Origin: Paratrimastix pyriformis
Lineage: Eukaryota; Preaxostyla; Paratrimastigidae
NCBI GenBank assembly: GCA_027972325.1
Contig: JAPMOS010000092.1
Span: forward strand, 92,503 to 156,502
Reading direction: 5' to 3'
DNA: 64,000 nucleotides
Position 1 is the stretch's first letter. Each line of letters starts with the position of its first letter. A program made the translations under genes and the position numbers. The notes beneath the pieces are model-generated. The model was not told the DNA's origin and made no database searches. It was given only the letters and a program-made list of their open reading frames with translations. Of this stretch, positions 10,641 through 64,000 are shown in pieces.

Positions 10641-10671
<31 letters not shown>

Positions 10672-34400: not shown

Positions 34401-36638
34401 GGCGCAGCAGGCGGGGCACAGGCAGCGGGGCCCCGGGACGGCGCCGACCCCGACGGGCCAGCCACCGAACCCCCAGACGCGGACCCGAGCGGCCCGGCCG
34501 ACGGCACCGACAAGCGGCGGCCCCGAGGCGCCAGCACCCGGCCGAGGGCCAGGCACCGGCGGAACAGCGGCCAAGGCGGCACCCGGCAGCGGCGCAGCAG
34601 GCGGGGCCAAGAGCACAGGCAGCGGGGCCCCGGGGACGGCGCCGACCCCGACGGGCCAGCCACCGAACCCCAGACGCGGACCCGAGCGGCCCGGCCGACG
34701 GCACCGACGAAGCGGTGGCCCCCGAGGCGCCAGCACCCGGCCGAGGGCCAGGCACCGGCGGAACAGCGGCCAAGGCGGCACCCGGCAGCGGCGCAGCAGG
34801 CGGGGCCAAGAGCACAGGCAGCGGGGCCCGGGGACGGCGCCGACCCCGACGGGCCAGCCACCGAACCCCAGACGCGGACCCGAGCGGCCCGGCCGACGGC
34901 ACCGACAAGCGGCGGCCCCCGAGGCGCCAGCACCCGGCCGAGGGCCAGGCACCGGCGGAACAGCGGCCAAGGCGGCACCCGGCAGCGGCGCAGCAGGCGG
35001 GGCCAAGAGCACAGGCAGCGGGGGCCCCGGGGACGGCGCCGACCCCGACGGGCCAGCCACCGAACCCCCAGACGCGGACCCGAGCGGCCCGGCCGACGGC
35101 ACCGACAAGCGGCGGCCCCGAGGCGCCAGCACCCGGCCGAGGGCCAGGCACCGGCGGAACAGCGGCCAAGGCGGCACCCGGCAGCGGCGCAGCAGGCGGG
35201 GCCAAGAGCACAGGCAGCGGGGGCCCCGGGGACGGCGCCGACCCCGACGGGCCAGCCACCGAACCCCAGACGCGGACCCGAGCGGCCCGGCCGACGGCAC
35301 CGACAAGCGGCGGCCCCCGAGGCGCCAGCACCCGGCCGAGGGCCAGGCACCGGCGGAACAGCGGCCAAGGCGGCACCCGGCAGCGGCGCAGCAGGCGGGG
35401 CCAAGAGCACAGGCAGCGGGGCCCCGGGGACGGCGCCGACCCCGACGGGCCAGCCACCGAACCCCAGACGCGGACCCGAGCGGCCCAGCCGACGGCACCG
35501 ACAAGCGGCGGCCCCCCGAGGCGCCAGCACCCGGCCGAGGGCCAGGCACCGGCGGAACAGCGGCCAAGGCGGCACCCGGCAGCGGCGCAGCAGGCGGGGC
35601 CAAGAGCACAGGCAGCGGGGGCCCCGGGGACGGCGCCGACCCCGACGGGCCAGCCACCGAACCCCCAGACGCGGACCCGAGCGGCCCGGCCGACGGCACC
35701 GACAAGCGGCGGCCCCCCGAGGCGCCAGCACCCGGCCGAGGGCCAGGCACCGGCGGAACAGCGGCCAAGGCGGCACCCGGCAGCGGCGCAGCAGGCGGGG
35801 CCAAGAGCACAGGCAGCGGGGGCCCCGGGGACGGCGCCGACCCCGACGGGCCAGCCACCGAACCCCCAGACGCGGACCCGAGCGGCCCGGCCGACGGCAC
35901 CGACAAGCGGCGGCCCCCCGAGGCGCCAGCACCCGGCCGAGGGCCAGGCACCGGCGGAACAGCGGCCAAGGCGGCACCCGGCAGCGGCGCAGCAGGCGGG
36001 GCCAAGAGCACAGGCAGCGGGGGCCCCGGGGACGGCGCCGACCCCGACGGGCCAGCCACCGAACCCCCAGACGCGGACCCGAGCGGCCCGGCCGACGGCA
36101 CCGACAAGCGGCGGCCCCCCGAGGCGCCAGCACCCGGCCGAGGGCCAGGCACCGGCGGAACAGCGGCCAAGGCGGCACCCGGCAGCGGCGCAGCAGGCGG
36201 GGCCAAGAGCACAGGCAGCGGGGGCCCCGGGGACGGCGCCGACCCCGACGGGCCAGCCACCGAACCCCCAGACGCGGACCCGAGCGGCCCAGCCGACGGC
36301 ACCGACAAGCGGCGGCCCCCCGAGGCGCCAGCACCCGGCCGAGGGCCAGGCACCGGCGGAACAGCGGCCAAGGCGGCACCCGGCAGCGGCGCAGCAGGCG
36401 GGGCCAAGAGCACAGGCGACAGCAAAGCAACAGCCAAGCCAGCACCAGAGAGCAGGCCCTCCGGCACCGGCTGGGGATACCGGTGTCCCATGCTTTCCTT
36501 CTCAAACTCCACACGAAGGAGTCGCATCGCCCGGGCCTGCGGTGGGCTTGAGAGGGACTTAGAAGAGGGGTCTTCCCCGGCCTCCCCGGCCTCGCCCACG
36601 ATGGCCTCGCCCACGATGGCCTCGGCCTTGAAAGGCAC
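31430..36638 (-). CDS. LINE-1st proline/alanine-rich ORF segment preceding the endonuclease
   Basis: A single minus-sense frame runs 36638-30909 (1909 codons) and ends in the endonuclease. Its N-terminal 70 residues (RAMRLLRVEFEKESMGHRYP) look like ordinary protein. The bulk is the repeat-encoded sequence PVLLAPPAAPLPGAALAAVP and its relatives. Unit lengths of 196-199 bp shift the frame repeatedly, so successive units are read in different registers; no stop intervenes in any register. Whether this is translated is uncertain. Confidence 0.45.
32030..36420. repeat. About 22 tandem copies of a 198-bp GC-rich unit
   Basis: The landmark GCGGGGCCAAGAGCACAGGC recurs at 32041, 32238, 32435, 32631, 32829, 33027 and onward to about 36400, with spacing 196-199 bp. 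One unit near 34417 is shortened. Units differ mainly by the length of short C or G runs (for example CGAGG against CCCGAGG) and by CGGCCGG/CAGCCGA variants. Both strands are nearly free of stop codons throughout. Confidence 0.97.
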
Positions 36639-40804: not shown

Positions 40805-42215
40805 ATGGACCTCTTTGACCAGCTCCCCCAAGAGCTTTTGCCCCTGTTTGTTGAAAATTCTGGACCATATGATGCGTTTCCCACCTATTTGCATCTGATC
40901 GGGACGTGTCGTCTCATCCGGGAAAGATTGCGCCGCGCCCTTCGGTCTATTTCGATTTTCGACCCCAGGAACAATGCCGAACCCGAACGTGAACTCGAAC
41001 GCGATTTAAAATGGGCTCCAGACTTTTCCCTTCCGGCCGAAACTGTTGCACTCTTGCTGGGTCCCTGCAAGTCTCTTCAAGAAATCACTTTGGGGCTCGC
41101 CATCACCCGGAGTGGCCGTGAGGAGACCACCTACAGCCTCTGGATTGACGCGGCCTTCAGTCAGCACCCCACCGTCGGGTCCCTGCGGCTCACCAAAGAG
41201 TTCTGCCAGTCGTTGACGCCGGGGGCCCGACCGCATCTTTTCGCACATGGTCTGATTTTTTCCACCACATCACCCTGTCATTTCAGATGACAAACCATCG
41301 CCACCAGCCCCGTCTGGCTACACTCCACGTCCGCTCGTCTGCCCGCATACCCGACTGGGGTGAAGCCCTCTTTGACTCCCTGGCACGCCACTGCCCCGAG
41401 CTCCAAAATCTCGCTTACGAGAACGATTCCATGTTCAGCAATCCATGTGCCCTCCAGGCCTGCCGGGCCCTGCGCTCGCTGAGTCTCCAGTACCGCGATT
41501 ACAGTCGCGAGGATGAAATGGACGACTTGGGCGGGTGGACGGCCCCGAGCCTTCCGAGCGACCCCCAAATGGAGGAGGTGCTGTCTCAACTGCCCGAGTT
41601 GGAGTCCCTGTACACACCTGACCTGGGGGTTGCGCAGGCCCACCCGAACCTGGTCACCCGGCTCGACGTGACCAGCTGGCTGCAGCGTCGGAGCCACGGT
41701 CGTGATGCCCCTTCCCTGGTCTACCCGCACCTGACCCAGCTTCGCATACAGCGGTTCGGTCCGGGATGTCTGCCCCTCCTGGTGGCTGTGGCCCCCCATC
41801 TGCGCGTCTTCCGGGTCCGTTTACGGAGCCATATCGACGTGGGCCAGCTGCTGGCCGCCCTGCAATCGGCCCCGCACCTTTCGGAGGTGTTTCTGAGGAA
41901 CTACCCGGCGGCCACATTCTGGGGGCTCCCGGCACTGTGCACCCGTTTGGAGCATTTCACCTTGTACGGCAAGCGGCGCATGACTTCGCGCTCGGGAGTC
42001 CTCCGCATCCGCTCGGGCGCCTTGTCACGCTGCGGCTCGACACGGAGACCAATTTGAAGAGGATCACGGTCGAGTGCCCGTCCCTCGTTCGGCTGAGCCT
42101 CCCCTCCACCCCGGCCGTCGTCGAGCTGCGCTGCCCCTGCCTTCGGCTCCTCCAACCCGCTCATGCGCAGCAGCGCCTGGTGGCCCTGGAACCCATGCCT
42201 GCTCTGCGTTTCCCC
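40805..42215 (+). CDS. F-box/LRR-like protein, interrupted downstream by the second LINE
   Basis: The N-terminus MDLFDQLPQELLPLFVENSG followed by a helical segment with TCRLIRERLR resembles an F-box. The rest has leucine-rich spacing (SLQEITLGLAITRSG, LRSLSLQYRDY, LESLYTPDLGVAQAHPNLVT, LTQLRIQRFGPGCLP, LVTLRLDTETNLKRITVECP, LVRLSLPST). A probable intron 41250-41286 starts GTCTGA and ends TTCAG, but its phase is off by one; a miscounted base in the G run near 41221 would fix this. A second frame change is needed near 41970. The coding sequence runs directly into the LINE at 42216, so the gene is truncated or pseudogenised. It would act as a substrate adaptor of an SCF ligase (family knowledge). 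Confidence 0.6.
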
Positions 42216-42279
42216 CGGTCCTACCGACCTGGAAAGTGTTTGAATTTGGGATCTTCGCCTTTTCTATTGGCCAATTGAC

Positions 42280-43342
42280 GATGTCTTCTGAAACTCATTC
42301 TGTTGAAGATGCTGGTGCGGTTCCTCTGACGCTGGAAAGTGTTGAGGCTGAAGCCAATCGCCAAAGAATGGAGGCGGCTGGTAAAAAAAGAGTGGCCGAA
42401 AAGAGCCAGGCCGAGGAGCAGGGTGAAAAGAAGGAAAAAGTTATGGTCTGTGTTAATTGGATAGTGGCTTTCCTACCGAAAGTCCGCCTATCAAGGATGT
42501 TTGTTGGGCTCATCTTGGGTCTTTGTTTGTCAATTGCCTTTTGTGAATTACAGGCTGAGACAATGAGATTCGCTATTAAATTTGAGCCAAGTGCTGTGCA
42601 ATTTAGCTGGTACGAACTTGAATGCCAGCTTCGTGAGATCCTTGGCGAGGCCCGTGTTCAACAAGGCCTGGAAGAAGGAACTTTGGCGTGACGTGTCTGA
42701 GACCCGATGCCGCGGAGATTCTTGGAGCTTTTGCAAGTCGGAATCAGGCCGTCCTGACTGATCTGGGAAGTGAATGTGAGCGGCCGGCCTCAGCTGTGAC
42801 CTTTGTTACAATGAGGGCTCATCTGGGTGGTTTGCCCTGGAAGCTAAAGAAGAGGAGGTTCGCCAATGGTTGCGTGAAGCGAACCCGAGTGCGCAGTGTC
42901 TGTTCGCAATCGCTGACTTATTGATCGCCACCCCGGTAGTTTGGGTCAAGCCTGCTCGCCAGCCGGGTGCATGGCGTGTGTCTGTGACATGCTCGGTGGG
43001 ACAGCCCCACATCCCGGAGATCTTCCGGGGCAAGCGCATAGTACAGATCGCTCCGGGGAGGATCGGCCTCTCCGGGCGGACCATCGTTTGGCCTTTATTC
43101 GTGCGGCCGGTGTCGAGTGGCCGCAGCAGATGCAGGAGTACCTCAAGAACCACCACATTGTGGTAGAGGTCTCCGATATTTGGAGATCAGAAGTGGCGTG
43201 GTCAAGTGGGCGGTGGGACGGGACGTTTTGTGTCATGGCAACCCCGGAGCAGAGGGAGGCCATCGACGCTTTGAAGCGGGAGTCGCGTCCGCGTGTGGTG
43301 AAGGTGTCGGTGGGGGTGAATGCGGGGAAGAAGTTCAAGTAA
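42280..43342 (+). pseudogene. Second LINE copy 1, ORF1
   Basis: Starts MSSETHSVEDAG; a charged, Glu-rich helix (EAEANRQRMEAAGKKRVAEK) is followed by a hydrophobic membrane-like segment (RMFVGLILGLCLSIAFCEL). A C-terminal domain then ends with ATPEQREAIDALKR, VVKVSVGVNAGKKFK and TAA at 43340. One T is missing near 42683 relative to copy 2, shifting the frame; further small indels follow. No named domain was recognised. The hydrophobic segment is unusual for an ORF1 protein. Confidence 0.65.
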
Positions 43343-43369
43343 AGGTTGGGGGCTGTGTTTCTCTTCCAC

Positions 43370-44625
43370 CCTCTTACGCTCTTGCTCCTGGGACATGCGT
43401 GTGGAAAGAAACAGCCTTCTATTGGAATGGCGTGGGGAGGAGAGTGGTTGGCGGGGGAGCAATCGAATGAAGGAAAAAGAAGGTGGAGTGGGGGTAAAAT
43501 TGGAGAAGGTAGTGCAAAGACAGGAAGTGATATGTGTATGGTGCTTTTGGATGCAGACGGTGGTCGAAGAGAATTGGGTCCACGGTAGGGTAAATGGAAT
43601 TGGCCTTGTTGATCAAAAAGAGAGGGGCGAGAAGCGTGGTCGTATGGGTTGGATAAAGACTGGTAATGAGAACTGGGAATGCTGGTACGGAGAAGGGGAA
43701 GACCTCTGGAAGGGGCGAAGGGGCCGGTGGTGGACGGGAGAGAGATGGGATCAGGAGGGTTGGCGGGGTTGGGATGGCTGTTTTCTCCCGCGTTTTCTGG
43801 TGGGCTGAGCGCCCCTACTTTCCAACGGTGGTTGGATGGTGTGCCGGCTTGGTGTGGTGGCTGCATTGGGTGGCGGCTGCCCTCAGGTTGGTGTGGTATG
43901 TCTAGCCGATGTCTCGTTGGTCTGTGGATGGAGGAAGATGGGTGGAGAGTTTCTAATCATGCTTTGATCATAGTCTCCCGGCTGGACAGAGTGCTTTGCC
44001 TCGGAGGTGGGCCCTGTCTGGTGTCGGAAATATCTACCGGTTTGTTGGTTGTTGGGACGTCTGGCAGCGGCTCATCCTTAGAATTTCAGATATCTGGCCC
44101 CTGAGATGCCTGTCTGACCGTCTGGTCAGATGGAAGATCCTTCTCTGGGATGTTGCTGATGCGGCACGTTCTTTGGGAGAGAGTCTGTCTTTCCGGTATT
44201 CTTTTTGTCATCTTCAGAAACTTTTAGGAATGTGGCCGCTGATCTTGGTAGGGCTGGTCAAGGGCAGTCTGGTTATTGTTTTGAGCTTTCCTGGAATGGG
44301 GTTGGTCTGTGTGTACCTTTTTTCAGTCATCCAATTCCAATACTGGACTGAGCAGATGGGAGCTCCAATGCCTGCATCTGCACAAAACCTCCGAAGGAAT
44401 GGGCAACTTTGGACGATGTCTGAAGGTCTGTGTAAGTTTTCATTTATTACAGTTTACTCATTTTCTGAGATCGATGATCTCGGTAGGACTGGTGGTGACG
44501 CTAGGGCCGGTCAAGGGGTCAACGGTCAAACCAGGACCCCTTAACACCCGCAGCGGTTCCTGCGGGTGCTGGAGAGGAGGGGCCGCTGTGCTACGTCGGC
44601 GGGATGCCCTAGGGATCGTTACCCC
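43370..44625 (+). pseudogene. Second LINE copy 1, middle ORF
   Basis: This corresponds to the open frame 56134-57405 of copy 2, about 420 codons. It is rich in Trp, Gly and Cys and contains NENWECWYGEGEDLWKGRRG and LDRVLCLGGGPCLVSEI. In copy 1 it is split by small indels. Function unknown; it may be the N-terminal part of ORF2 or a separate product. Confidence 0.4.
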
Positions 44626-44689
44626 TGGGGTGGCCAGAGAGAGGGTCGAGGACAACCTGGCTAAAATGTGGCAGGCAAACCTCACCGAG

Positions 44690-45065
44690 TGGTACGAGGA
44701 AAACCCCGAAGGGGACAACCTCAAGAAGGAGGAAAACCCCGCCGTCGGGGACAACCTCAAGAAGGAGGAAAACCCGCCGTCGGGGACAACCTCAAGAAGG
44801 AGGAAAACCCCGCCGTCGGGGACAACCTCAAGGGGCAGCGCTGGGCGACATCGGCTGGGTGGGGTATGGACATGATGGAGGAAAACCCCAAGAAGGGGGA
44901 CAACCTCAAGAAGGAGGAAAACCCCGGCGTCGGGGACAACCTCAAGGGGCATCGCTGGGCGCCATCGGCTGGGTGGGGACGGACACGGAGGAGGAAAACC
45001 CCAAGGGGACAACCTCAAGAAGAAGAAGGAGGAAACCCCGCTGAAGGGGACAACCTCATGAGGGA
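44690..45065 (+). repeat. GDNLKKEENP-encoding tandem repeats
   Basis: Units of about 36-39 bp (GGGGACAACCTCAAGAAGGA, then GGAAAACCCC and GCCGTC) occur about seven times, interrupted by longer variants ending in GGCTGGGTGGGG. The coding sense gives GDNLKKEENPAV. Copy 2 has fewer units at 57480-57840. A hydrophobic stretch (FLLTVCANVFLVAVCLVD) follows at about 45200-45260. Confidence 0.85.
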
Positions 45066-45272
45066 AGGAGCAGAGGAGAACCCCGGCTTTGGGGAAAACC
45101 TTGATGGTAGGATGGAGGACCATGCCGGGGATGGGAATGCGTCACAGGCTGGCGACATCGGGGGCATACTACTTTGGCTCAGGTGGCTGGGGCTGGCTTC
45201 CTTTTTGCTTACGGTCTGTGCGAATGTTTTCCTTGTTGCCGTTTGCCTTGTAGACTCCTTTGAGTTTCGGCA

Positions 45273-48200
45273 GTGCTCTTGGGACAGGGAGGTTTGGAAA
45301 GGGAGACTGGCTCGGATATCATGGATGCGAGTGATAATGTACGCTTGGGGGACTTGGAAGGTTTAGCATGCCAGGCCAATTGGAATTTTATTGTTGACCG
45401 ATTAAAGAGATGGGTGGGGATGAAGGAGGGGTGGAAAAGGGGGTGGGCTGACATTGACTTGGCTGAATTTTTGAAAAAGCTGGTTGGGTTGGTTGAGTTT
45501 TATTGTAATGACGATGACATCGGTAAAAAGATTGGAGGCGGTGGGGAGCAGGATTGCTATGGAGGTGGAAATGGAGTGGGGGAAGGTGATGGAGAGCTGG
45601 AGGATGGTAATGGGGGCGGAATGTATAGAGGAATAGTTAATGTCACTGGCCACCGGTGCTGGATCAGCACGGCCCTCCAGGTGGTTGAGGCGGCTGGGGG
45701 GGTGGGTGAGTTGTACGAGATATTGCGGGGAGGTCATGGGACCCCGGAGTGGGAAGATGGGGTGTGGAGGGAGGGAACCAGGGGTTTGGACGAAGGGCAG
45801 GATGGGGAAGCGGAGGAGGCCCTCGTTGAATTGTTGCGGAGGTCTGGGATCGCGGCAAAGGTAACTGTGGAAGTAGAGGACACATGTCAGGAGTGTGAGC
45901 TTATGAGCAGCGGAACGGAGAGAGAGAGAAGCGATCTAACGGTGAGATTGGAGCGGGATTTCGAGAAAATGAGTGACGCTGTGGGAAGGGTGATCCTTTC
46001 AAATCAGAGGATACGAAAAAGGTGCCCTGGGTGTGGGGTGGATCGTTGGCATGCGAGGGAGGAGCGGGTGGTGGGAACAGAGGGTGTTATGGTCGTCCAA
46101 GTGACGCGGGGTAGGGAAGGGATGGTTGATAAGAGGCAATGGAGGGTCCAGCCGGATGTGGTGGAAATGGGCGGTAAGGTGTACCACATGGTAGCGGTGG
46201 CGGAGTTTTGTGGGAGAAGGGGGGGTGGGCGACACTGGGTGGCGGTCAAAAAGATTGGAGACCAATGGTGGAGGTTTAATGACAGCAGGGTCGGAGAAGT
46301 TGGGGAAGAGGAAGCAGGTCATGGAGATGTGTTCCTGTATGTGGAGGGGCAGGAAAAGGCTTCGAAGATGAGGAAGTCGGCCCTGGGTCCGGCGTTCGGA
46401 GGTGTGAAGATGCAGATGGGAGGTGGGAAGGCTGGGGAGCGGGGATGGGCCGGGGCGGAGCAGGGCATGGGGGTGGGTGTGGGAAGCCTATCTGCAGTGG
46501 GGGATAGTTACCCGGAAGTCAGGGTGCCTGCGGGGGAGGGGAAGGGAGTGAAGGCGCGGAGAAGGAAGGGGAAAAGGGATGCGCAGAGGAAGAAGAGGCA
46601 AAAAGCGAAAATGCTGGATATTGAGCGGGTGTATGATGAGAAGGCGGAGGCGGAAGAATTTTGTGGGGTGGAAAAGTGGTGCTGCGAAAAAAAGGAGGCT
46701 AACTTGAGGGCGGGGTTGCCGGGGAAAGAGGAGGATCGGGTGAGGGTGGTCGGATGGAATGTGCGGGGGCTGGGCTCGGAATGGAAAAAGAAAAATGTAG
46801 AAGATTTGCTAAAGGTGGGTCGAACGGACATAGCGCTCTTGCAGGAGACGAAAGGAACGAGGGACAACAAGGAGTTTTTGCAGGAAAAATGGATGAAGGG
46901 GTGGTGCTGGAGGAGCTCAGTGGCGGAGGAGTCTGTTAAGAGGCACCCGAGAGGGGGGGTGATGATTGGGTATAGAAAAACATTGCAAGTGGCAGTGCGA
47001 AAGATTACGGAGGTGATTCCTGGTTATCTCATGTTTATGGACTGGACGGAGGGGAAGAATCAGATGAGACTCATCAACATGTATTTTCCTACTGGAGACG
47101 GAGAGGCGAACGTGAGGGTAAGGAGTGTGATCTTGGAGCGGTTGGAGGAGTGTGTGGCGGGGGGGGCGTCGGATGGGAGAGGAGTCGTGGTGTACACAGA
47201 TGCGAACGGATGGGCTAAGGAAGGAGGGGAGCAAGAGAAACTGGGATTGTATGATGTGGCGAAGATGGTTGGGAAGGCGGGGGAGATAACTTTTATCCGG
47301 AGCCGGAAGGGTGGGACGGTGGCGAAAGAGGAAGAGCATGAAGGGAAGGGGAGGGCCCGGTTGGATTTGTGTCTGTCGACGCAGGGGACAATGGGGAGGG
47401 TGCTGGACAATTTGTTTGTTTGGCGGAATGATGAGATTCAGTGGCAGGCGGTCACGGATCACCACATGATTGTAACGGATCTCCGAAACATGGCGCCTTC
47501 TGCGGTGAAAATGGCTCGGAGGAAGGTGGCCATCTGCCCTTCCCGGACGGAGGTGGAGGCACTGTTGCGGGACAAGAAGAAGGAGGAGTATGATGTTATG
47601 GTTGGGAAAATGGAAAAGTACCGTGGGAAGGTTGCGCAAATGTTGCGAGAGGCAGCTGTGAAGGGGGAGGAGCCATCATTTGAACAGATGAGTGAGTTTC
47701 TTCGGGTAACAGCTGGCTGCGTTTTTGGCTATAGGGATGTGATGAATACGGATCGAGATTTTGAGCCTTTCAGGATAAAGAAATTGAGGAGGAGAGCGCT
47801 GGCGGAGGAGGACTTGAATAAGAGGAAGGAGATGTTGAAACAGTTGGCGAAGATGAGGTCGGTGCATTATGGTAAGAGAGATAGGGCATTGGAGGGAAAG
47901 CGCAAGCGTATCTATAAGGGTATCATGACGGATGGCGCGGCGCCAATTACAACCTACGTGACTCGAAATGCGGAGGGGAAGATGGACAGGGTGGTGTCGG
48001 ACCCGGCGGAGGTTAAGAGGGGATGGTGGGGATTCATGGCGGGGCTTGCAAAAAGGAAGCTGCCGGTGGGGGACGGGGGGCAAAGACTGAAGGAGGTAAC
48101 GGGAGGCGTGGGTGGAAGGGTAATTATGGCCCCTCTGACGACGCATGATATCCAGACAATACTGGGGGCGTTGCCGGACGGGAAAGCGGCTGGCCCGGAT

Positions 48201-48380
48201 GGAGTGACGGCGGAGATGGTCCATGCTTGTCAGGACGAAATTAAGGAGTGGTTGGGGAGGCGATACAACGAGATGTTGGAGAAGTCTGAGGTTCCTGAGG
48301 AGCTGAAACTCAGCTCGGTCTATATGGCAACCAAATCGCAGACGGAGCATCCGGGGATCCGGCCGGCAGAAGGCCTATAA
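45273..48380 (+). CDS. Second LINE copy 1 ORF2: USP-like deubiquitinase domain, AP-endonuclease, start of RT
   Basis: 1035 codons without a stop. Residues about 117-350 form a ubiquitin-specific-protease-like domain: Cys box GIVNVTGHRCWISTALQ (Cys129), a zinc-ribbon pattern CQEC (205/208) and RCPGCG (251/254), then YHMVAVAEFCG, GGGRHWVAVK (His321), WWRFNDSRV (Asn336/Asp337) and DVFLYVE. A basic linker follows (KARRRKGKRDAQRKKRQKAK). The AP-endonuclease begins near residue 490: VGWNVRGLGS, DIALLQETKG, RGGVMIGY, INMYFPTGDGEA, VVVYTDANGW, RLDLCLST, VTDHHMIVTDL. The RT starts near residue 950 (LPDGKAAGPDGVTAEMVHAC) and is cut by a frame change at about 48330. The protease probably processes the polyprotein or removes ubiquitin (inference). 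Confidence 0.85.
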   Translation: MLLGQGGLERETGSDIMDASDNVRLGDLEGLACQANWNFIVDRLKRWVGMKEGWKRGWADIDLAEFLKKLVGLVEFYCNDDDIGKKIGGGGEQDCYGGGNGVGEGDGELEDGNGGGMYRGIVNVTGHRCWISTALQVVEAAGGVGELYEILRGGHGTPEWEDGVWREGTRGLDEGQDGEAEEALVELLRRSGIAAKVTVEVEDTCQECELMSSGTERERSDLTVRLERDFEKMSDAVGRVILSNQRIRKRCPGCGVDRWHAREERVVGTEGVMVVQVTRGREGMVDKRQWRVQPDVVEMGGKVYHMVAVAEFCGRRGGGRHWVAVKKIGDQWWRFNDSRVGEVGEEEAGHGDVFLYVEGQEKASKMRKSALGPAFGGVKMQMGGGKAGERGWAGAEQGMGVGVGSLSAVGDSYPEVRVPAGEGKGVKARRRKGKRDAQRKKRQKAKMLDIERVYDEKAEAEEFCGVEKWCCEKKEANLRAGLPGKEEDRVRVVGWNVRGLGSEWKKKNVEDLLKVGRTDIALLQETKGTRDNKEFLQEKWMKGWCWRSSVAEESVKRHPRGGVMIGYRKTLQVAVRKITEVIPGYLMFMDWTEGKNQMRLINMYFPTGDGEANVRVRSVILERLEECVAGGASDGRGVVVYTDANGWAKEGGEQEKLGLYDVAKMVGKAGEITFIRSRKGGTVAKEEEHEGKGRARLDLCLSTQGTMGRVLDNLFVWRNDEIQWQAVTDHHMIVTDLRNMAPSAVKMARRKVAICPSRTEVEALLRDKKKEEYDVMVGKMEKYRGKVAQMLREAAVKGEEPSFEQMSEFLRVTAGCVFGYRDVMNTDRDFEPFRIKKLRRRALAEEDLNKRKEMLKQLAKMRSVHYGKRDRALEGKRKRIYKGIMTDGAAPITTYVTRNAEGKMDRVVSDPAEVKRGWWGFMAGLAKRKLPVGDGGQRLKEVTGGVGGRVIMAPLTTHDIQTILGALPDGKAAGPDGVTAEMVHACQDEIKEWLGRRYNEMLEKSEVPEELKLSSVYMATKSQTEHPGIRPAEGL

Positions 48381-48397
48381 CTTTAATACAGGTTTTT

Positions 48398-49596
48398 TTG
48401 AAAGGACTGCAGGTAGTGATTGCCTCGAGATTTCAAGACTGGTGCGTTGAAAAAGGGGTATTCGGGGCGGAGCAGTTTGGTTTCCTGAGGGATCGGAGGA
48501 TTGAGACGCCTATTGCCGAGATTTTGGGGGTGTTGACGGACTCGAAGATTATGGGAGGTAAGGAGTTCCACATGTGCGCGCTAGATATAAGAAAGGCCTA
48601 TGATACAGTTGACATGGAGGCGCTCAGGAGGGGTTGAGAAGGATGGGGGTGGAAGAGGAATTTGTCAGGTATGTGGACAGCTTGTATGAGGGGAGAAAGG
48701 CGCGGGTGATCACGGGGTACGGGTTGACGGATAGCTATGACATTGAGAGAGGAATTAGTCAAGGGGACCCGTTGTCCTGCCTGCTGTTTATCTCCTTCAT
48801 GGAGGGAGTCTTGGCGGAGGTGAGACGACAGGAGGGGGGCTATATTCTGGATAGCGGCAGGAAGGTAAAGGTGTTGGCATTTGCGGACGACATTATGTTG
48901 GTGACGAGAACAAGGGAACAGATGGTCCGTTTGGTGAATACGGTAAGGCGGAAAGTGGAAGAGGCTGGTATGGAGCTGTCGTGGAGCAAGTGTGACTACC
49001 TGTGTGGCGGGGTGAAGGGGAAGACGGACTTGGATCTGGGAGAGGGTCGAAAGATCAGAGTGCAGCAAAAGGGTGGAGCAATTCGGTATCTTGGGATATG
49101 GATAGATGAGGAGATGAACATGAAGGTCAACACGGAGAAGGTGATCCAGAAAATGTGTGGGCGACTGCACAGGCTCATGGACAAGAAGGTCCCTCCGAGG
49201 TTGATGGTGCAAATGATTAATGAGTGTGTCTCGACTTGCCTACAATACACGGCGAGGCAGTGCCCAATGCCGACAAGGGACTTGGAAACACTGAAGCAGA
49301 GATATGCGAGGGTGTTCAGGGAAATCGGAGGTTGTATTGGGAAATGCGACCCGGCAGAGGTGCTGTTCTTTCCGGAGGAGGAAGGGGGTATGGGGCTGAA
49401 GGACCCGATTGATGTCCATGATATGATGGTGATGACACAAATTCTGGGGAGGATGGCGGACGAGCAGGGGTGTGGAGTGGTGCTGAGGGAGGAGATCGTG
49501 CTGCTGCAGAAATTGTGGACGACGCGTGAGCCGCTGTTGGATGATGCAGGGAAGTGGGTGAAGATGCACGGGCAGGAGAAGATGCCGGGGTGGTGA
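48398..49596 (+). pseudogene. Second LINE copy 1, reverse transcriptase palm
   Basis: Continues ORF2 in two open frames (48398-48637 and 48634-49596). Blocks seen: AEQFGFLRDRRIETPIAEI, ALDIRKAYDTVDMEAL (motif A), GISQGDPLSCLLF (motif B), KVLAFADDIMLVTRT (catalytic FADD), GMELSWSKCDYL and IRYLGIWIDEEM. The two frames abut at 48634, consistent with one or two base indels. The following thumb and linker frames run to about 49810. Confidence 0.88.
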
Positions 49597-49599
49597 TTG

Positions 49600-50350
49600 G
49601 GGCGTTGCAGGTGATGCACAGGAGAGACATGGCGATCCTGAGGGACGGTGAGAAACTGAAGGAGAAGTGGTACGGCATGCCGACGACACTGGAAGAGATG
49701 GCGGAGCCCTGCAAGATAACAAAGAAGCACAGACAGACCCTCATGAAAAGGAAGATTCGGAGTGTGGCGGACCTCATCATAGGGGAAGATTTCATTGGAA
49801 AGGGGTGATGCCGCAGTATGTGGAGACGATCAAAAAGCGGGTGTGTCTGTATGGTAACAGGGTGAGTCCGGACTATCTGCAATTGGCGAGGCGGATTCGG
49901 GAGGAGGAGTCGGCGGAGGAGGGGCGGAAAAGGCGGAGAGTGGAGAAGGAAAAGGAGGAAGGCAATGCAGATAAGGGGAATGAAGGAAGGAGTGAGGGGA
50001 GTCGGGGGTTGGGGCGGTCGGGGGGAAGCGAAACCAAGAGTCAAGAGGCAAGCAAAGTTGCAGTGCGTCGGGGGAAGGTGGCAGGTGAAACGAGGAAACA
50101 TGGGAGGGAGGATGGGGTGGGAAAGGGGGAGAGTAAGAAGGGAAGGAGCGAGAAAGAAGATGGAGAGGGGGGTCGGATGCAGATTGAGGCGAGCGAGAAG
50201 AAGAGGAGGGCGGAAGGGCAGGTGGAGGGGGGGGAACAAGATGGGGAGGGCGAGGGCTGGTGAGTGGGACGAGGTATTGTGGAAAAGGCGGGAGGAGTTG
50301 ATGGCGGAGTGTGATGAGGTGGAAGTAAGAGGGAGCCAGAGGCGGAATGG
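49600..50350 (+). pseudogene. Second LINE copy 1, basic linker between RT and RNase H
   Basis: Frames 49554-49808 and about 49805-50263 encode MKRKIRSVADLIIGEDF and then a very Lys/Arg/Glu/Gly-rich tract (EEGRKRRRVEKEKEEGNADK). It is probably an unstructured linker of the ORF2 polyprotein; frame changes occur near 49590 and 49805. Confidence 0.6.
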
Positions 50351-51496
50351 AGGTTGTTTTATACTGATGGGAGTGCGACAAGAAGCCGGAAGGAAAGACG
50401 GGCGGCGTTCGCGGTGATTGAGAGATTAAAAATGGGGCGCTGGCGGTGAGAGCGGGGAGGAGGTGTTCGGGTCGGGGGCAGACTAACAATGAAGCGGAGT
50501 TGGAGGCTATTCTGGAGGCTATTCGGATTGGACAGGATGCGAATGTGGAAGTGAGAACGGACAGTAAAGTGGCAAAGGGGTGGGTTGAGGGACTGATAAA
50601 GGGTTGGTGGAAACCAACGGATCTGATAGAATCGAAGGCGGAGGGACTGCTGCGGAGGGGGCAGCGGATTGTGAAGGAGCATCGTGGAGAGATACGACTG
50701 GTCTGGGTTAAGGGACATCAGGAAACTAGTGCGTCGCTGGATGCGGAGGGGAACAGATTGGCAGACAAGATTGCGGGACGGAGCATAAAGATGGAGCCGA
50801 GCGTGGTGCCCGAAGAGAAAGGATGGGGATTCAAGCTGGTGCGGAGAAGTGACGGGAAGGAGGTGGAGACAGACTTCAGAGAGGTGATGAAGGAATGGGG
50901 GAGGAAAAGTCGCATGTGGAGGGCGGCTCGTAAAAAGAAAAACGAGATTGTGTTGATTAACGCAGAGAGTCGCAACGGAGGGATCAACGTGCAAACGATG
51001 AGGTGTGAGATGTCAGGGAAGCTGGCGATGATGGCAATCCTGCAGCGGTATATCACGGCCAACATCCGGTTCTACATCAACGGGGAGGGGGATGGGAAGT
51101 GTTGGTGTGGGTGAGGGACCACATGAACCACTTGGTGTTTGAGTGCCCAGGGATGGCGGGATGTGTGGGGGAGGGAAAGGGGCGGATTGAGTGAAGCTGG
51201 ACAAGGCGGAGGGAGCTGAAGACCCGGACCAGCTGCTCGAGGAGAAGTGGGTGAGCCGAAGGTAAGGGGAGGCAGATCACGAAGGTGAGGCTATGGCAAT
51301 TGATGGAGAGGTCCGGGGGAGATGGTTTCGGGCGAGAACATGGGACAGTTTTGGGAAAGGTTCTCGACAGAGGTGGCTGAGATGTGTGACCGATAGGAAG
51401 AAAAGACGAAGGAGGAGGGCGGACGCATATGAGACGCGACGAACACAGACTCCCACCTATATCTTCGTTGCTGAGAGGCGGGAAGCCTAACGGTGG
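50318..51496 (+). pseudogene. Second LINE copy 1, RNase H domain and C-terminal finger
   Basis: The RNase H blocks are spread over two frames: WRLFYTDGSATRSRK (first Asp, near 50365), then TNNEAELEAILEAI (Glu), VEVRTDSKVAKGWVEG (Asp) and RLVWVKGHQ with DAEGNRLADKIAGR (His and last Asp). A C-terminal finger has KCWCG and NHLVFECPGM near 51105-51150. The last residues are recognisable by comparison with copy 2 (DGFGREHGTV) and end near 51490. Confidence 0.82.
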
Positions 51497-52145
51497 ATGG
51501 GTTTCGCATGGAACGCGTTCTAAGGTTTGGAGAGATTTATGGGTACCGATTTAAGGAGAATGGGGTTTTGATTTATGCGAATCCGAGAATCGACTTGTTG
51601 TTCGGCGTTCCAAACCAAGATTGAAAGCCCGAAGTGGAGAAGGGGGTTAGATGCATTGTTTTACGGGGAAGGGAGCGTTTGGAATCCAGCGGGAAAGGCC
51701 GGTGCAGCTCGGGGTTCGCCGGCATTCTTGGCCAAGGGAGACATTCAGGGCTGAGTTTTCGGCATCCGGGGGTGGTGGTGGGGAGCCAGTTTGATGCGAC
51801 CTGTGTCCGAAGGCCCGTGGATTGATGGATTCTTGTTTGAGGTTGGGAATTTCCGGATGGACAGCCCCGTTGTGGGCTTTGGCCCCGGAAGGCGGCCTTT
51901 GCATTCAAATCCGAGGGCCGCCGAGAGATGGAAAGCGCTTCCAATGCGGTTTGATGGAGACGCGAATTGTGTGATGCATGCGGAAATTAAACGCAATGAT
52001 GACCGACTGCGCTTGTGAACCGACATCTCAAAAGCATGCGATAGGATCTGGACAGCGATTTCAGGCGTTCGCAAAAGATGCTTCCTGAGCTTGCGAAATT
52101 GTTTGGGTACATCACTGTTCACAAGCAGCGGGTCGTCTCAGAGCA

Positions 52146-53018
52146 TTGCTGAAGACGATCGTTGAAATGCTCGGCAGCCTCGAGCGAGAAATGCTCGTTT
52201 CGTCTATGACTGACTTCTTTTATCAAGTGCTTGGCTCTGTCACGTGGCATGCTGGACAATTGGACTTGGAGAGTATCTCATCGGAATCGTCCGAGGAGCT
52301 CCCAATGAGTATGCGTTTTTGTGGTCCCGCAGCCTCATCCAACCGCTCTTTGAAACCGTCTGATTCGTCACGTCACACAACCTCAATGAGTGGGTGTCGG
52401 CCGACATCATGTATCACCACCCCACCCCGTCAATTGGGTGGAGGTCCGCCACACCCTCGCAGCCCTCCTTCTCCGAAGTCGCTCTCGGGCTCCAAGAAAG
52501 GACGGGCTGCCAACCCCTTTGAGGTCACCACTGTGCACCCCCCTGCGGTCCCGGCCCCCTTCGGGAACCCGTTTGCACATCAACCGGCGGCGCCCACCGC
52601 CCCGTCCACCCCGGTTCCTGACCCAGTGGTCGCCAAGCCGCCTGCGAGCTCCCGCACCCCAGCCCCAGCCTCGGCGAAGGGGGGTGAGCCCGGAGGCAAG
52701 AAGTCGATCGCCCCTGCAGTGGGTGCCCCTGCCCCTGCTGTCCCTGTTGTTGTGCCCCCCTTGTCTGTGTCTGGCCCTGCCATGGCTGACACCAAGGCGC
52801 CTGATCCCGCTGCCGTGGCGCCAACTGCTTCCGCTGCTGTTCGCAAGATTGGTGCCGCCGACCTGGTCCCCAGCCGGGGGGATCATGATGTGGGGAAGGA
52901 GCCAGTGTGGGGACGGTGGATCAGGGGACCATCCAAGTTGAGCTACCGGTCATTCCGGTGCTGGTGGATGGGCAGTAGCCCCCCCTCAGGCTGGCGCGAG
53001 GAGTGCTTCTCGTATTAA
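52146..53018 (+). CDS. Proline/alanine-rich ORF of unknown function
   Basis: 290 codons. Residues about 110-240 have a Pro/Ala/Val-rich composition with ordinary protein features (GRAANPFEVTTVHPPAVPAP, KKSIAPAVGAPAPAVPVVVP). A natural-looking end in another frame (IQVELPVIPVLVDGQ, near 52930-52980) suggests a frame change near 52915. It could be a gag-like or ORF1-like protein of another element. No domain recognised. Confidence 0.35.
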   Translation: MLKTIVEMLGSLEREMLVSSMTDFFYQVLGSVTWHAGQLDLESISSESSEELPMSMRFCGPAASSNRSLKPSDSSRHTTSMSGCRPTSCITTPPRQLGGGPPHPRSPPSPKSLSGSKKGRAANPFEVTTVHPPAVPAPFGNPFAHQPAAPTAPSTPVPDPVVAKPPASSRTPAPASAKGGEPGGKKSIAPAVGAPAPAVPVVVPPLSVSGPAMADTKAPDPAAVAPTASAAVRKIGAADLVPSRGDHDVGKEPVWGRWIRGPSKLSYRSFRCWWMGSSPPSGWREECFSY

Positions 53019-53839
53019 CTTTCGTTTTCTTTTTTCTGTTCTTCGTTCCCCCCGCCCCCTCATTCTGTCATGTCCTCTTTGTTCCATTTTGTATGCGAGT
53101 TGATGTTTCCTTGCGAGTTTCCAGTCTCTCTCTTCCTCCCGATGCCCCCTGTGCACCTTCCCCTGGAGGGAGCGCTGGGGTGCATTTTACCCGCCGGCTT
53201 CGGCCGGACCAACGGTTTTCATTCACTATTTCTCAGTTCGATTATGTCGTGCTGTTTAGGTGATTGAATAGTATAACACACACACACACCTGTGGCCCAT
53301 GAAGACTATCCTCCCTGACCTATTTTCTCCACGCTGAACGCGACTGGCGCCCAGTTTCTCTCTCGCCACGGACCAAGGGCTCGTAGGCTTCGGAATGACT
53401 CGGAAAACTAGGAGGTTGCGCTGTTTTTCCGGGATGCCGCCAAGGTTCCGGCTCATTTCCCTTCGCCAGAGGCCCGCCTTCCCGAGTTTCTTTCCGGTTT
53501 CTCAATGCCCGGGCCATTTTATTTTGCCTACCGTGCCCCGATTTCGTTGCTTTGGCAACTCGTGAAAAATCGAATGTTCCCACTTCGTTTTGCTCGTCCT
53601 CCCCCTGGTCTTCTGTTGGTCTCTACTTCATATTTCGCAGGGCCACCCCAGCCCCTTGCGAGCCCTTGGTCACCAATCGGGTGAACCCCCGTTGTTCGGC
53701 ACTTCGGCATCTTTTTTTTTAAACAAACCCACCCCGGCAACCGAAATTACCGAGCAGGTGCAGGCTCCAATTGGCAGACCAGAGCTTAATGCTCCAGTCG
53801 CCCGGCGCTTGCCCGCCCTCTGGCGGGCCCAACGCCCTC

Positions 53840-54743: not shown

Positions 54744-54958
54744 ATGTCTTCACCTCTCAACCACTTTGGTTCACTCTTGCAAATGCTGTCTGGGGATTCC
54801 GCAACAACTTCAGGTTTCGACCCGTCTGCTCCGTCTTATCTTCCACCTGTGCCACAACAACAAGCCGAAATGCAACCTCAACAACAACCCGAAAAACAAC
54901 CTTCGTCTCAAGATCATTCTCAACCGCAACCTCCACTTGATCCTCCCCCCCGGTCCTA
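54744..54958 (+). CDS. Gln/Pro-rich ORF start truncated by LINE copy 2
   Basis: Starts MSSPLNHFGSLLQMLSGDSA, becomes Gln/Pro-rich and runs into the LINE after DPPPR. The remaining codons to 55013 belong to the LINE leader. It may be the 5' end of a host or element ORF interrupted by the insertion. Confidence 0.35.
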
Positions 54959-55015
54959 CCGACCTGGAAAGTGTTTGAATTTGGGATCTTCGCCTTTTCT
55001 ATTGGCCAATTGACG

Positions 55016-56130
55016 ATGTCTTCTGAAACTCATTCTGTTGAAGATGCTGGTGCGGTTCCTCTGACGCTGGAAAGTGTTGAGGCTGAAGCCAATCGCCAAA
55101 GAATGGAGGCGGCTGGTAAAAAAAGAGTGGCCGAAAAGAGCCAGGCCGAGGAGCAGGGTGAAAAGAAGGAAAAAGTTATGGTCTGTGTTAATTGGATAGT
55201 GGCTTTCCTACCGAAAGTCCGCCTATCAAGGATGTTTGTTGGGCTCATCTTGGGTCTTTGTTTGTCAATTGCCTTCTGTGAATTACAGGCTGAGACAATG
55301 AGATTCGCTATTAAATTTGAGCCAAGTGCTGTGCAATTTAGCTGGTACGAACTTGAATGCCAGCTTCGTGAGATCCTTGGCGAGGCCCGTGTTCAACAAG
55401 GCCTGGAAGAAGGAACTTTTGGCGTGACGTGTCTGAGACCCGATGCCGCGGAGATTCTTGGAGCTTTTGCAAGTCGGAATCAGGCCGTCCTGACTGATCT
55501 GGGAAGTGAATGTGAGCGGCCGGCCTCAGCTGTGACCTTTGTTACAATGAGGGCTCATCTGGGTGGTTTGCCCCTCAGCTGTGACCTTTGTTACAATGAG
55601 GGCTCATCTGGGTGGTTTGCCCCTGGAAGCTAAAGAAGAGGAGGTTCGCCAATGGTTGCGTCAAGCGAACCCGAGTGCGCAGTGTCTGTTCGCAATCGCT
55701 GACTTATTGATCGCCACCCCCGGTAGTTTGGGTCAAGCCTGCTCGCCAGCCGGGTGCATGGCGTGTGTCTGTGACATGCTCGGTGGGACAGCCCCACATC
55801 CCGGAGATCTTCCGGGGCAAGCGCATAGTACAGATCGCTCCGGGGGAGGATCGGCCTCTCCGGGCGGACCATCGTTTGGCCTTTATTCGTGCGGCCGGTG
55901 TCGAGTGGCCGCAGCAGATGCAGGAGTACCTCAAGAACCACCACATTGTGGTAGAGGTCTCCGATATTTGGAGATCAGAAGTGGCGTGGTCAAGTGGGCG
56001 GTGGGACGGGACGTTTTGTGTCATGGCAACCCCGGAGCAGAGGGAGGCCATCGACGCTTTGAAGCGGGAGTTGCGTCCGCGTGTGGTGAAGGTGTCGGTG
56101 GGGGTGAATGCGGGGAAGAAGTTCAAGTAA
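55016..56130 (+). pseudogene. Second LINE copy 2, ORF1
   Basis: The same protein as in copy 1, with the T run near 55418 intact. The frame is broken by an internal tandem duplication of about 46 bp (the stretch beginning CTCAGCTGTGACCTTTGTTA, present once in copy 1) at 55527-55622. The C-terminal part resumes as 55765-56130 with LKNHHIVVEVSDIW and ends VNAGKKFK. Confidence 0.7.
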
Positions 56131-56133
56131 AGG

Positions 56134-57405
56134 TTGGGGGGCTGTGTTTCTCTTCCACCCTCTTACGCTCTTGCTCCTGGGACATGCGTGTGGAAAGAAA
56201 CAGCCTTCTATTGGAATGGCGTGGGGAGGAGAGTGGTTGGCGGGGGGGAGCAATCGAATGAAGGAAAAGAAGGTGGAGTGGGGGTAAAACTGGAGAAGGT
56301 AGTGCAAAGACAGGAAGTGATATGTGTATGGTGCTTTTGGATGCAGACGGTGGTCGAAGAGAATTGGGTCCACGGTAGGGTAAATGGAATTGGCCTTGTT
56401 GATCAAAAAGAGAGGGGCGAGAAGCGTGGTCGTCTGGGTTGGATAAAGACTGGTAATGAGAACTGGGAATGCTGGTACGGAGAAGGGGAAGACCTCTGGA
56501 AGGGGCGAAGGGGCCGGTGGTGGACGGGAGAGATGGGATCAGGAGGGTTGGCGGGGTTGGGATGGCTGTTTTCTCCCGCGTTTTCTGGTGGGCTGAGCGC
56601 CCCTACTTTCCAACTGTGGTTGGATGGTGTGCCGGCTTGGTGTGGTGGCTGCATTGGGTGGCGGCTGCCCTCAGGTTGGTGTGGTATGTCTAGCCGATGT
56701 CTCGTTGGTCTGTGGATGGAGGAAGATGGATGGAGAGTTTCTAATCATGCTTTGATCATAGTCTCCCGGCTGGACAGAGTGCTTTGCCTCGGAGGTGGGC
56801 CCTGTCTGGTGTCGGAAATAACTACCGGTTTGTTGGTTGTTGGGACGTCTGGCAGCGGCTCATCCTTAGAATTTCAGATATCTGGCCCCCTGAGATGCCT
56901 GTCTGACCGTCTGGTCAGATGGAAGATCCTTCTCTGGGATGTTGCTGATGCGGCACGTTCTTTGGGAGAGAGTCTGTCTTTCCGGTATTCTTTTTCGTCA
57001 TCTTCAGAAACTTTTAGGAATGTGGCCGCTGATCTTGGTAGGGCTGGTCAAGGGCAGTCTGGTTATTGTTTTGAGCTTTCCTGGAATGGGGTTGGTCTGT
57101 GTGTACCTTTTTTTTCAGTCATCCAATTCCAATACTGGACTGAGCAGATGGGAGCTCCAATGCCTGCATCTGCACAAAACCTCCGAATGAATGGGCAACT
57201 TTGGACGACGTCTGAAGGTCTGTGTAAGTATTCATTTATTACAGTTTACTCATTTTCTGAGATCGATGATCTCGGTAGGACTGGTGGTGACGCTAGGGCC
57301 GGTCAAGGGGTCAACGGTCAAACCAGGACCCCCTTAACACCCGCAGCGGTTCCTGCGGGTGCTGGAGAGGAGGGGCCGCTGTGCTACGTCGGCGGGATGC
57401 CCTAG
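56134..57405 (+). CDS. Second LINE copy 2, middle ORF (open)
   Basis: 423 codons beginning four bases after the ORF1 stop, in the same frame as ORF1 (56130 and 56134 boundaries). It is Trp/Gly/Cys-rich, with a hydrophobic patch (VSEITTGLLVVGTSGSGSS) and ends CYVGGMP. No domain recognised. Its preservation in copy 2, where ORF2 is destroyed, reflects that this part of the copy has few deletions. Confidence 0.45.
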   Translation: MGGCVSLPPSYALAPGTCVWKETAFYWNGVGRRVVGGGEQSNEGKEGGVGVKLEKVVQRQEVICVWCFWMQTVVEENWVHGRVNGIGLVDQKERGEKRGRLGWIKTGNENWECWYGEGEDLWKGRRGRWWTGEMGSGGLAGLGWLFSPAFSGGLSAPTFQLWLDGVPAWCGGCIGWRLPSGWCGMSSRCLVGLWMEEDGWRVSNHALIIVSRLDRVLCLGGGPCLVSEITTGLLVVGTSGSGSSLEFQISGPLRCLSDRLVRWKILLWDVADAARSLGESLSFRYSFSSSSETFRNVAADLGRAGQGQSGYCFELSWNGVGLCVPFFSVIQFQYWTEQMGAPMPASAQNLRMNGQLWTTSEGLCKYSFITVYSFSEIDDLGRTGGDARAGQGVNGQTRTPLTPAAVPAGAGEEGPLCYVGGMP

Positions 57406-57460
57406 GGATCGTTACCCCTGGGGTGGCCAGAGAGAGGGTCGAGGACAACCTGGCTAAAAT

Positions 57461-60300
57461 GTGGCAGGCAAACCTCACCGAGTGGTACGAGGAAAACCCG
57501 ATGGGGACAACCTCAAGAAGGAGGAAACCCCCGCCGTAGGGGACAACCTCAAGAAGGAGGAAAACCCCGCCGTCGGGGACAACCTCAAGGGGCAGCGCTG
57601 GGCGACATCGGCTGGGTGGGGTATGGACACGATGGAGGAAAACCCCAAGAAGGGGACAACCTCAAGAAGGAGGAAAACCCGGCGTCGGGGACAACCTCAA
57701 GGGGCATCGCTGGGCGCCATCGGCTGGGTGGGGACGGACACGGAGGAGGAAAACCCCAAGGGGGACAACCTCAAGAAGGAGGAAAACCCCGCTGAAGGGG
57801 ACAACCTCATGAGGGAAGGAGCAGAGGAGAACCCCGACTTTGGGGAAAACCTCGATGGAGGGATGGAGGACCATGCCGGGGATGGGAATGCGTCACAGGC
57901 TGGCGACATCGGGGCATACTACTTTGGCTCAGGTGGCTGGGGCTGGCTTCCTTTGCTTACGGTCTGTGCGAATGTTTTCCTTGTTGCCGTTTGCCTTGTA
58001 GACTCCTCTGATTTTGGCAGTGCTCTTGGGACAGGGAGGTTTGGAAAGGAGACTGGCTCGGATATCATGGATGCGAGTGATAATGTACGCTTGGGGGACT
58101 TGGAAGGTCTAGCATGCCAGGCCAATTGGAATTTTATTGTTGACCGATTAAAGAGATGGGTGGGGATGAAGGAGGGGTGGAAAAGGGGGTGGGCTGACAT
58201 TGACTTGGCTGAATTTTGAAAAAGCTGGTTGGGTTGGTTGAGTTTTATTGTAATGACGATGACATCGGTAAAAAAGATTGGAGGCGGTGGGAGCAGGATT
58301 GCTATGGAGGTGGAAATGGAGTGGGGGAGGGTGATGGAGAGCTGGAGGATGGTAATGGGGCGGAATGTATAGAGGAATAGTTAATGTCACTGGCCACCGG
58401 TGCTGGATCAGCACGGCCCTCCAGGTGGTTGAGGCGGCTGGGGGTGGGGAGTTGTACGAGATATTGCGGGAGGTCATGGGACCCCGGGTGGGAAGATGGG
58501 GTGTGGAGGGAGGAACCAGGGGTTTGGACGAAGGGCAGGATGGGGAAGCGGAGGAGGCCCTCGTTGGTGTTGCGGAGGTCTGGGATAGCGGCAAAGGTAA
58601 CTGTGGAAGTAGAGGACACATGTCGGGAGTGTGAGCTTATGAGCAGCGGAACGGAGAGAAGCGATCTAACGGTGAGATTGGAGCGGGATTTCGAGAAAAT
58701 GAGTGACGCTGTGGGAAGGGTGATCCTTTCAAATCAGAGGATACGAAAAGGTGCCCTGGGTGTGGGGTGGATCGTTGGCATGCGAGGGAGGAGCGGGTGG
58801 TGGGAACAGAGGGTGTTATGGTCGTCCAAGTGACGCGGGGTAGGGAAGGGATGGTTGATAAGAGGCAATGGAGGTCCAGCCGGATGTGGTGGAAGTGGGC
58901 GGTAAGGTGTACCACATGGTAGCGGTGGCGGAGTTTTGTGGGAGAAGGGGGTGGGCGACACTGGGTGGCGGTCAAAAGATGGAGACCAATGGTGGAGGTT
59001 TAATGACAGCAGGGTCGGAGAAGTTGGGGAAGAGGAAGCAGGTCATGGAGATGTGTTCCTGTATGTGGAGGGGCAGGAAAAGGCTTCGAAGATGAGAAGT
59101 CGGCCCTGGGTCCGGCGTTCGGAGGTGTGAAGATGCAGATGGGAGGTGGGAAGGCTGGGGCGGGGATGGGCCGGGGCGGAGCAGTGCATGGGGGTGGGTG
59201 TGGGAAGCCTATCTGCAGTGGGGATAGTTACCGGAAGTCAGGGTGCCTGCGGGGAGGAAGGGAGTGAAGGCGCGGAGAAGGAAGGGGAAAGGGATGCAGG
59301 AAGAAGAGGCAAAAAGCGAAAATGCTGGATGAGCGGGTGTATGATGAAGGCGGAGGCGGAAGAATTTTGTGGGGTGGAAAAGTGGTGCCGAAAAAAGGAG
59401 GCTAACGAGGGCGGGGCTGCCGGGAAGAGGATCGGGTGAGGGTGGTCGGATGGAATGTGCGGGGCTGGGCTCGGAATGGAAAAGAAAATGTAGAAGATTT
59501 GCTAAAGGTGGGTCGAACGGACATAGCGCTCTTGCAGGAGACGAAAGGAACGAGGGACAACAAGGAGTTTTGCAGGAAAAATGGATGAAGGGTGGTGCTG
59601 GAGGAGCTCTGTGGCGGAGGAGTCTGTTAGAGGCACCCGAGGGGGTGATGATTGGGTATAGAAAAACATTGCAAGTGGCAGTGCGAAGATTACGGAGGTG
59701 ATTCCTGGTTATCTCATGTTTATGGACTGGACGGAGGAAGAATCAGATGAGACTCATCAACATGTATTTTCCTACTGGAGACGGAGGCGAACGTGAGGGT
59801 AAGGAGTGTGATCTTGGAGCGGTTGGAGAGTGTGTGGCGGGGGGGGCGTCGGATGGGAGAGGAGTCGTGGTGTACAGATGCGAACGGATGGGCTAAGGAA
59901 GGAGGGGAGCAAGAGAAACTGGGATTGTATGATGTGGCGAAGATGGTTGGGAAGGCGGGAGATAACATCCGGAGCCGGAAGGGTGGGACGGTGGCGAAGG
60001 AAGAGCATGAAGGGGAAGGGGAGGGCCCGGTTGGTTGTGTCTGTCGACGCAGGGGACAATGGGGAGGTGCTGGACAATTTGTTTGTTTGGCGGAATGATG
60101 AGATTCAGTGGCGAGGCGGTCACGGATCACCCATGATGGCGGTCTGCGGTGAAAATGGCTCGGAGGAAGGTGGCCATCTGCCCTTCCGGACGGAGGTGGA
60201 GGCACTGTTGCGGGACAAAGAAGGAGGAGTATGATGTTATGGTTGGGAAAATGGAAAAGTACCGTGGGAAGGTTGCGCAAATGTTGCGAGGCAGCTGTGA
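57461..60300 (+). pseudogene. Second LINE copy 2, degraded repeat region, USP-like domain and endonuclease
   Basis: The GDNLKKEENP repeats (57480-57840) and the start of ORF2 are readable to 58219. The USP Cys box lies near 58365-58450 (frame of MYRGIVNVTGHRCWISTALQ). The CPGCG and His/Asp-box regions survive as fragments between 58740 and 59060, and endonuclease pieces between 59450 and 60150. Numerous small deletions break all frames. Confidence 0.8.
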
Positions 60301-63905: not shown

Positions 63906-64000
63906 GGCGTTTTCGCACAGGAATGCGGATCTCAGTTTCCCAGAGTATAGAACGCCGGTAAGGAAGACTGGTTCCTGGGAGGTTCGGTGGATGGGTACAG
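63906..64000. other. Right flank of LINE copy 2
   Basis: 95 bases after the last clear match to copy 1. No feature recognised. Confidence 0.4.

Follow-up and report, generated by a model that had tools for sequence, protein, structure and literature searches.

A LINE with a USP-like domain upstream of its endonuclease

Contig JAPMOS010000092.1 of Paratrimastix pyriformis carries, within the 64,000 nucleotides analysed here (positions 92,503 to 156,502; hereafter the window), two copies of a long interspersed nuclear element (LINE) whose second open reading frame (ORF2) contains a ubiquitin-specific protease (USP)-like domain ahead of an apurinic/apyrimidinic (AP) endonuclease (APE). Copy 1 occupies 42212–51517 of the window on the forward strand (∼9.3 kb), as delimited by blastn against copy 2 and other genomic loci and by direct repeats; its 5′ end is common to copy 2 and to a further locus (L048), and blastn similarity stops at the 3′ end near 51508–51517. 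The open part of ORF2 (45273–48380, forward strand) encodes 1035 amino acids from a candidate GTG start and comprises the USP-like domain, a linker, the AP-endonuclease and the start of the reverse transcriptase (RT). A first-pass annotation made from the sequence had placed a set of USP landmarks before the AP-endonuclease in one open frame, and this arrangement was confirmed: the USP (peptidase C19) domain covers codons 117–356 (45621–46340) and the AP-endonuclease begins at codon 492 (46746–47471; VVGWNVRGL to TDHHMI), its Pfam Exo_endo_phos match (E = 2.6e-5) scoring 24.5 bits, exactly the Pfam cut-off (24.5). The RT (48634–49593; RVT_1, E = 2e-17) lies in a frame separate from the open part of ORF2 and RNase H (50446–51114; RNase_H, E = 9.4e-14) in its own open frame, both on the forward strand, and copy 1 is therefore broken. 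Copy 2 (54947–63927, same orientation) carries the USP region at ∼58366–59064, as had also been claimed, though here the frame is interrupted between 57940 and 59130 by many one-base deletions relative to copy 1, mostly in homopolymers, which may be sequencing errors close to the contig end or decay.

The proposed similarity to peptidase C19 was recovered in profile searches. The window domain scores 24.1 bits against Pfam UCH (PF00443; cut-off 23.9), family D domains (see below) exceed the same cut-off at 34.3 and 32.6 bits, and a PDB profile match aligns the Cys box to that of USP15. The predicted catalytic Cys129 (45657–45659) is invariant in six LINE families, as are the first CxxC pair of the finger zinc ribbon (Cys205 and Cys208; 45885–45896), Cys251 of the second pair (Cys251 and Cys254; 46023–46034; Cys254 being G in family G as aligned) and the predicted catalytic His321 (46233–46235), which aligns with the His box in both USP15 and Ubp8. 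Asn336 and Asp337 (46278–46283) align to FND in Ubp8 and FDD in USP15; following USP convention we take Asn336 to be the third catalytic residue and Asp337, which is invariant in the six families, to be the conserved second Asp. In all six the Cys box precedes the His box, the order found in peptidase C19.

AlphaFold2 modelling likewise returned a USP-like fold, with palm, thumb and fingers and a zinc ribbon, and the match to solved chains spans the entire domain. The best 50 structural matches listed are all USPs, with 14–22% identity to the solved chains among them. The SAGA-module protein Ubp8 ranks among the top sequence and structural matches, with USP46, USP12, USP15, USP2 and USP30 matching equally well or better; structural neighbours in BFVD are headed by giant-virus ubiquitin hydrolases, a likeness of structure only. 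No Ulp1 match was listed in Pfam scans of ORFs from the window and the fetched loci. Sequence, predicted structure and selection (below) together support the USP assignment, and cleavage of ubiquitin by the domain is predicted from them.

USP-bearing LINE families across the genome

Searching the same assembly (56 Mb, 495 contigs; 150 of 500 candidates scored) with the domain gave at least 164 matching places, a few or more of which are fragments belonging to the same copy. The window copy represents family A. Family B is represented by L021, a single 2365-residue frame that encodes USP, APE (Exo_endo_phos, 20.3 bits, under the 24.5 cut-off), RT (RVT_1, E = 1.3e-31) and RNase H (RNase_H, E = 4.3e-18), so that the AP-endonuclease and RT of an APE-type LINE, here with RNase H as well, stand in one ORF in this copy and are split in the window copy. 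USP and APE occupy different frames in family C (L033, L029); USP, APE and RT were all found in family D (L042, L043, L050), and a search with the family D RT led to further families. Family E (L046) is broken, family F (L052) has an APE match with E = 5.5e-11, and family G (L055) shows only the first APE motif, Pfam listing nothing. Altogether the USP domain lies upstream of APE in six families, and USP, APE, RT and RNase H share one frame in one copy. Domains of families F and G match more diverged places still, with open frames of 1057–1940 residues on contigs C190 and C478.

From the RT side, a USP match lies 1.5–4.5 kb upstream, among the matches listed, at 15 of the 25 top-ranked RT places, and a PDB search with the RT listed mainly R2 and LINE-1 proteins. 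Scans of viral contigs gave 40 pattern matches with the USP alignment A1 and three with the RT, and scans of prokaryote genome contigs gave 33 with A1, none confirmed by tblastn in either collection; eukaryote DNA is scarce in both collections, and for that reason these negatives are not evidence of absence.

Conservation and selection within the domain

Aligning the domains of families A, B, C, D, F and G left 18 invariant columns, among them Cys129, Gln136, Cys205, Cys208, Cys251, His321 and Asp337, while the domains of D, F and G are just 25–31% identical to that of the window. Seven of nine residues chosen from knowledge of USPs are invariant, for which the hypergeometric chance is 1.2e-7 (241 columns assumed), a figure that serves merely as a guide because the residues were picked after families A–D had been seen. 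Across the six families the residue at the third catalytic position is N, D, N, D, N and S, the Ser of family G being perhaps a one-residue alignment shift.

The catalytic residues are also kept in the better-preserved copies (the L021 frame, the stop-free matches and the six-family alignment), loss from which would have counted against the first-pass reading. Among stop-free matches (distinct matches within the fetched loci that extend over at least 150 query residues, dropping repeats and those below 40% identity for A or 50% for D) Cys, the Asn or Asp of the third position (17 N, 15 D) and the second Asp are each present in 32 of 32, and Gln is present in 32 of 33. His is kept in 29 of 33; it is lost as read in the remaining four, which share one locally shifted stretch. 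In broken copies Cys is retained in 8 of 8, whereas 11 of 16 retain His. The copies counted are related rather than independent.

The USP domain is under purifying selection. The NG86 ratio of nonsynonymous to synonymous substitution (dN/dS) in the domain is 0.28 for the window copy and L011, 0.19 for the window copy and L004, 0.45 for L011 and L004, 0.14–0.17 for three pairs within family B and 0.18–0.19 for three B–C pairs. In 9 of 9 pairs nonsynonymous changes were below neutral expectation (P = 0.025 for L011–L004 to 8e-16). Comparisons with family D, in which synonymous change is saturated, gave ratios of 0.28–0.51 or none computable and are little informative.

Along ORF2, identity between families A and B is ∼58–60% in the USP domain, 75% in APE and 88% in RT, and falls to 40–45% in the stretch preceding RNase H, which evolves even faster than the USP. 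The two families also show high synonymous divergence throughout ORF2, the domain included (0.51–0.89 per 60-codon stretch), from which it follows that the USP has travelled with the element while its protein sequence changed faster. We rejected a module swap as the source of the low A–B identity in the USP, since synonymous differences are similarly high over the whole of ORF2. The fast change fits either host conflict or weaker constraint away from the active site; positive selection was not evidenced, dN/dS being at most 0.35 in all 19 of 27 stretches where it could be computed.

Possible functions of the USP domain

The best explanation, to which we give a probability of roughly 55%, is that the domain is a genuine and probably active USP deubiquitinase, an old module of these APE/RT/RNase H LINEs that shields the element's ribonucleoprotein (RNP) in cis. 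The ORF2 protein would act in cis, its USP domain stripping ubiquitin (or a ubiquitin-like tag) from ORF2 protein, RNP or nearby host factors; the RNP would thereby evade turnover or restriction that depends on ubiquitin, allowing target-primed reverse transcription to be completed. Our analysis suggests, in other words, that these LINEs disable a host-cell control mechanism based on ubiquitin.

Several observations weigh against this explanation. Pfam support from single copies is weak: the window domain scores 24.1 bits against a UCH cut-off of 23.9, L021 (17.2 bits) and L033 (16.1 bits) fall under the UCH cut-off, and the F and G domains have no UCH match in Pfam. The catalytic His is lost, as read, in the 4 of 33 stop-free copies noted above, and the faster protein change of the USP than of APE and RT possibly reflects looser function as well as host conflict. 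For the remaining ten of the 25 top-ranked RT places, the matches listed include no USP 1.5–4.5 kb upstream; one of them, on contig C333, holds a broken USP stretch (L044), and no USP was present in the piece of C118 examined (L045). Nor was one seen in L053 and L054. RT places without a USP match are likely truncated elements, which cannot be distinguished here from a true lack. Finally, the substrate, the location and the cis action are ones that we infer.

A different target, which we consider possible and distinctly less probable than the RNP, is chromatin at the insertion site (through deubiquitination of H2A or H2B, like that by Ubp8 in SAGA) or DNA-repair factors, the outcome being that the nicked target is made accessible or its repair steered. 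The USP domain adjoins an endonuclease, SAGA-module Ubp8 is among its top matches, and a repair role has been proposed for transposon Ulp1 and OTU domains in the Ginger paper (PMC2836005). Against this, Pfam scans of the ORFs found no chromatin-binding domain, and the substrate cannot be read from the structural matches, because several USPs match as well as or better than Ubp8.

It is less probable again that the domain is a pseudo-enzyme that merely binds ubiquitin or another partner. Some USP-fold proteins, such as PAN2, are inactive, and the third catalytic position here varies between N and D, with Ser in family G as aligned; nevertheless Cys, His and Asp337 have stayed invariant over six families despite the low identity of D, F and G to the window domain.

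The first-pass annotation had offered as functions the cleavage of ubiquitin from the RNP, protection of the RNP from host RING/TRAF ligases and processing of the polyprotein; protection of the RNP remains the most likely in our judgement, and processing is improbable. USPs cleave behind the C terminus of ubiquitin, Pfam scans of the ORFs found no ubiquitin-like domain, and LINE ORF2 proteins are not known to need processing; these points outweigh the great length of the ORF. Viral deubiquitinases do often have such a processing task too (PMC9741609).

The idea that a single LINE recently acquired a host USP gene, or that the resemblance is a coincidence, with no function in either case, might have been entertained while the reading rested on two copies and single-copy Pfam scores close to the cut-off, yet is already contradicted by a domain common to six diverged families, by the high A–B synonymous differences within it, by a structural match over its whole length and by the absence of the D, G and F domain matches (28, 19 and 19, respectively) from the 31 best UCH places in the genome, which are those ranking above the first LINE copy.

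To return to the shielding of the RNP, a tentative extension is that these elements form a LINE group defined by an N-terminal USP and engaged in an arms race with ubiquitin-based restriction of retroelements by the host. This idea, which we hold to be somewhat less likely than its opposite, rests on a catalytic frame that does not vary, in contrast to the remainder of the domain, which evolves faster than APE and RT. LINE-1 is inhibited by TRIM5alpha, more strongly so when the RING domain of TRIM5alpha is changed in one way (PMC10169663); if the arms-race idea is true, ubiquitin control of retrotransposons operates outside animals too. Retention of the USP in one chain with endonuclease and RT over diverged families, in long open frames, makes a role in transposition testable.

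Relation to known systems

RandI/Dualen LINEs reportedly carry an OTU protease, as opposed to a USP. The first-pass annotation had invoked this domain, which we could not confirm in the available part of PMC4640811; what that part gives for RandI/Dualen is RNase H and APE plus a restriction-like endonuclease (RLE), the RLE being a difference from the present LINEs, and it places Ulp1 in NeSL and Utopia. In those non-LTR elements, too, a ubiquitin/SUMO-related cysteine protease is situated N-terminal to the RT, but it is of Ulp1 type and accompanied by a C-terminal RLE, whereas the present LINEs combine a USP with APE. Ubiquitin or SUMO proteases in fact occur in several classes of mobile element. 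Ginger, Mutator and Helitron elements carry Ulp1 or OTU (PMC2836005), and the VTD and OTU domains of Helitron/Helentron also belong to deubiquitinase families (PMC9741609), although those are rolling-circle DNA transposons and the VTD active site is Asp-x-His, in contrast to a USP in a retrotransposon. In a Trichomonas vaginalis protein, Peptidase C19 is joined to transposase_11 (PMC2836005), this being one named protein and with a DNA transposase rather than a LINE. Cellular USPs (USP46/USP12, USP15/USP4 and yeast Ubp8) share the C19 class, their matched chains measuring 281–482 residues compared with ∼240 for the LINE domain, which lies inside ORF2. None of the records listed in searches of the open-licence PMC literature names a LINE with a USP, nor do the available parts of PMC3747384 and PMC10318531; if the arms-race idea holds, the present elements would provide the first known case of a USP-class deubiquitinase in LINEs.

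Other features of the window and genome

In the 5′ region of copy 1 the ORF list contains broken ORF1 candidates, of low confidence (MSSETHSV... plus a second piece; 42281–43342, forward strand). This region is separated from ORF2 by a forward-strand array of 36-bp units with a 114-bp higher unit (Tandem Repeats Finder); the unit (GGGGACAACCTCAAGAAGGAGGAAAACCCC...) is arrayed upstream of ORF2 in both LINE copies, at 44696–45058 and 57517–57809. Between the copies lies a distinct dispersed repeat (51883–53285), 95% like L030:3275–4703. Rfam listed nothing in the window. Elsewhere, positions 2–649 of the reverse complement of L045 hold a 216-residue frame that resembles a retroelement integrase, by motifs alone.

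The light-harvesting family PF00504 gave no match in the genome, and the host eukaryote is perhaps not photosynthetic; TTAGGG arrays are many. Two ORFs of the window (5490–6488 and 9528–10721) match F5/8 type C (discoidin-like) domains, and for the latter ORF the score exceeds the cut-off of one family. A 198-bp unit is repeated 22 times at 32029–36417, in an array with 98% matching and ∼81% G+C whose forward strand is nearly free of T (AT skew 0.97–0.995) and which holds ORFs of up to 1909 residues on both strands.
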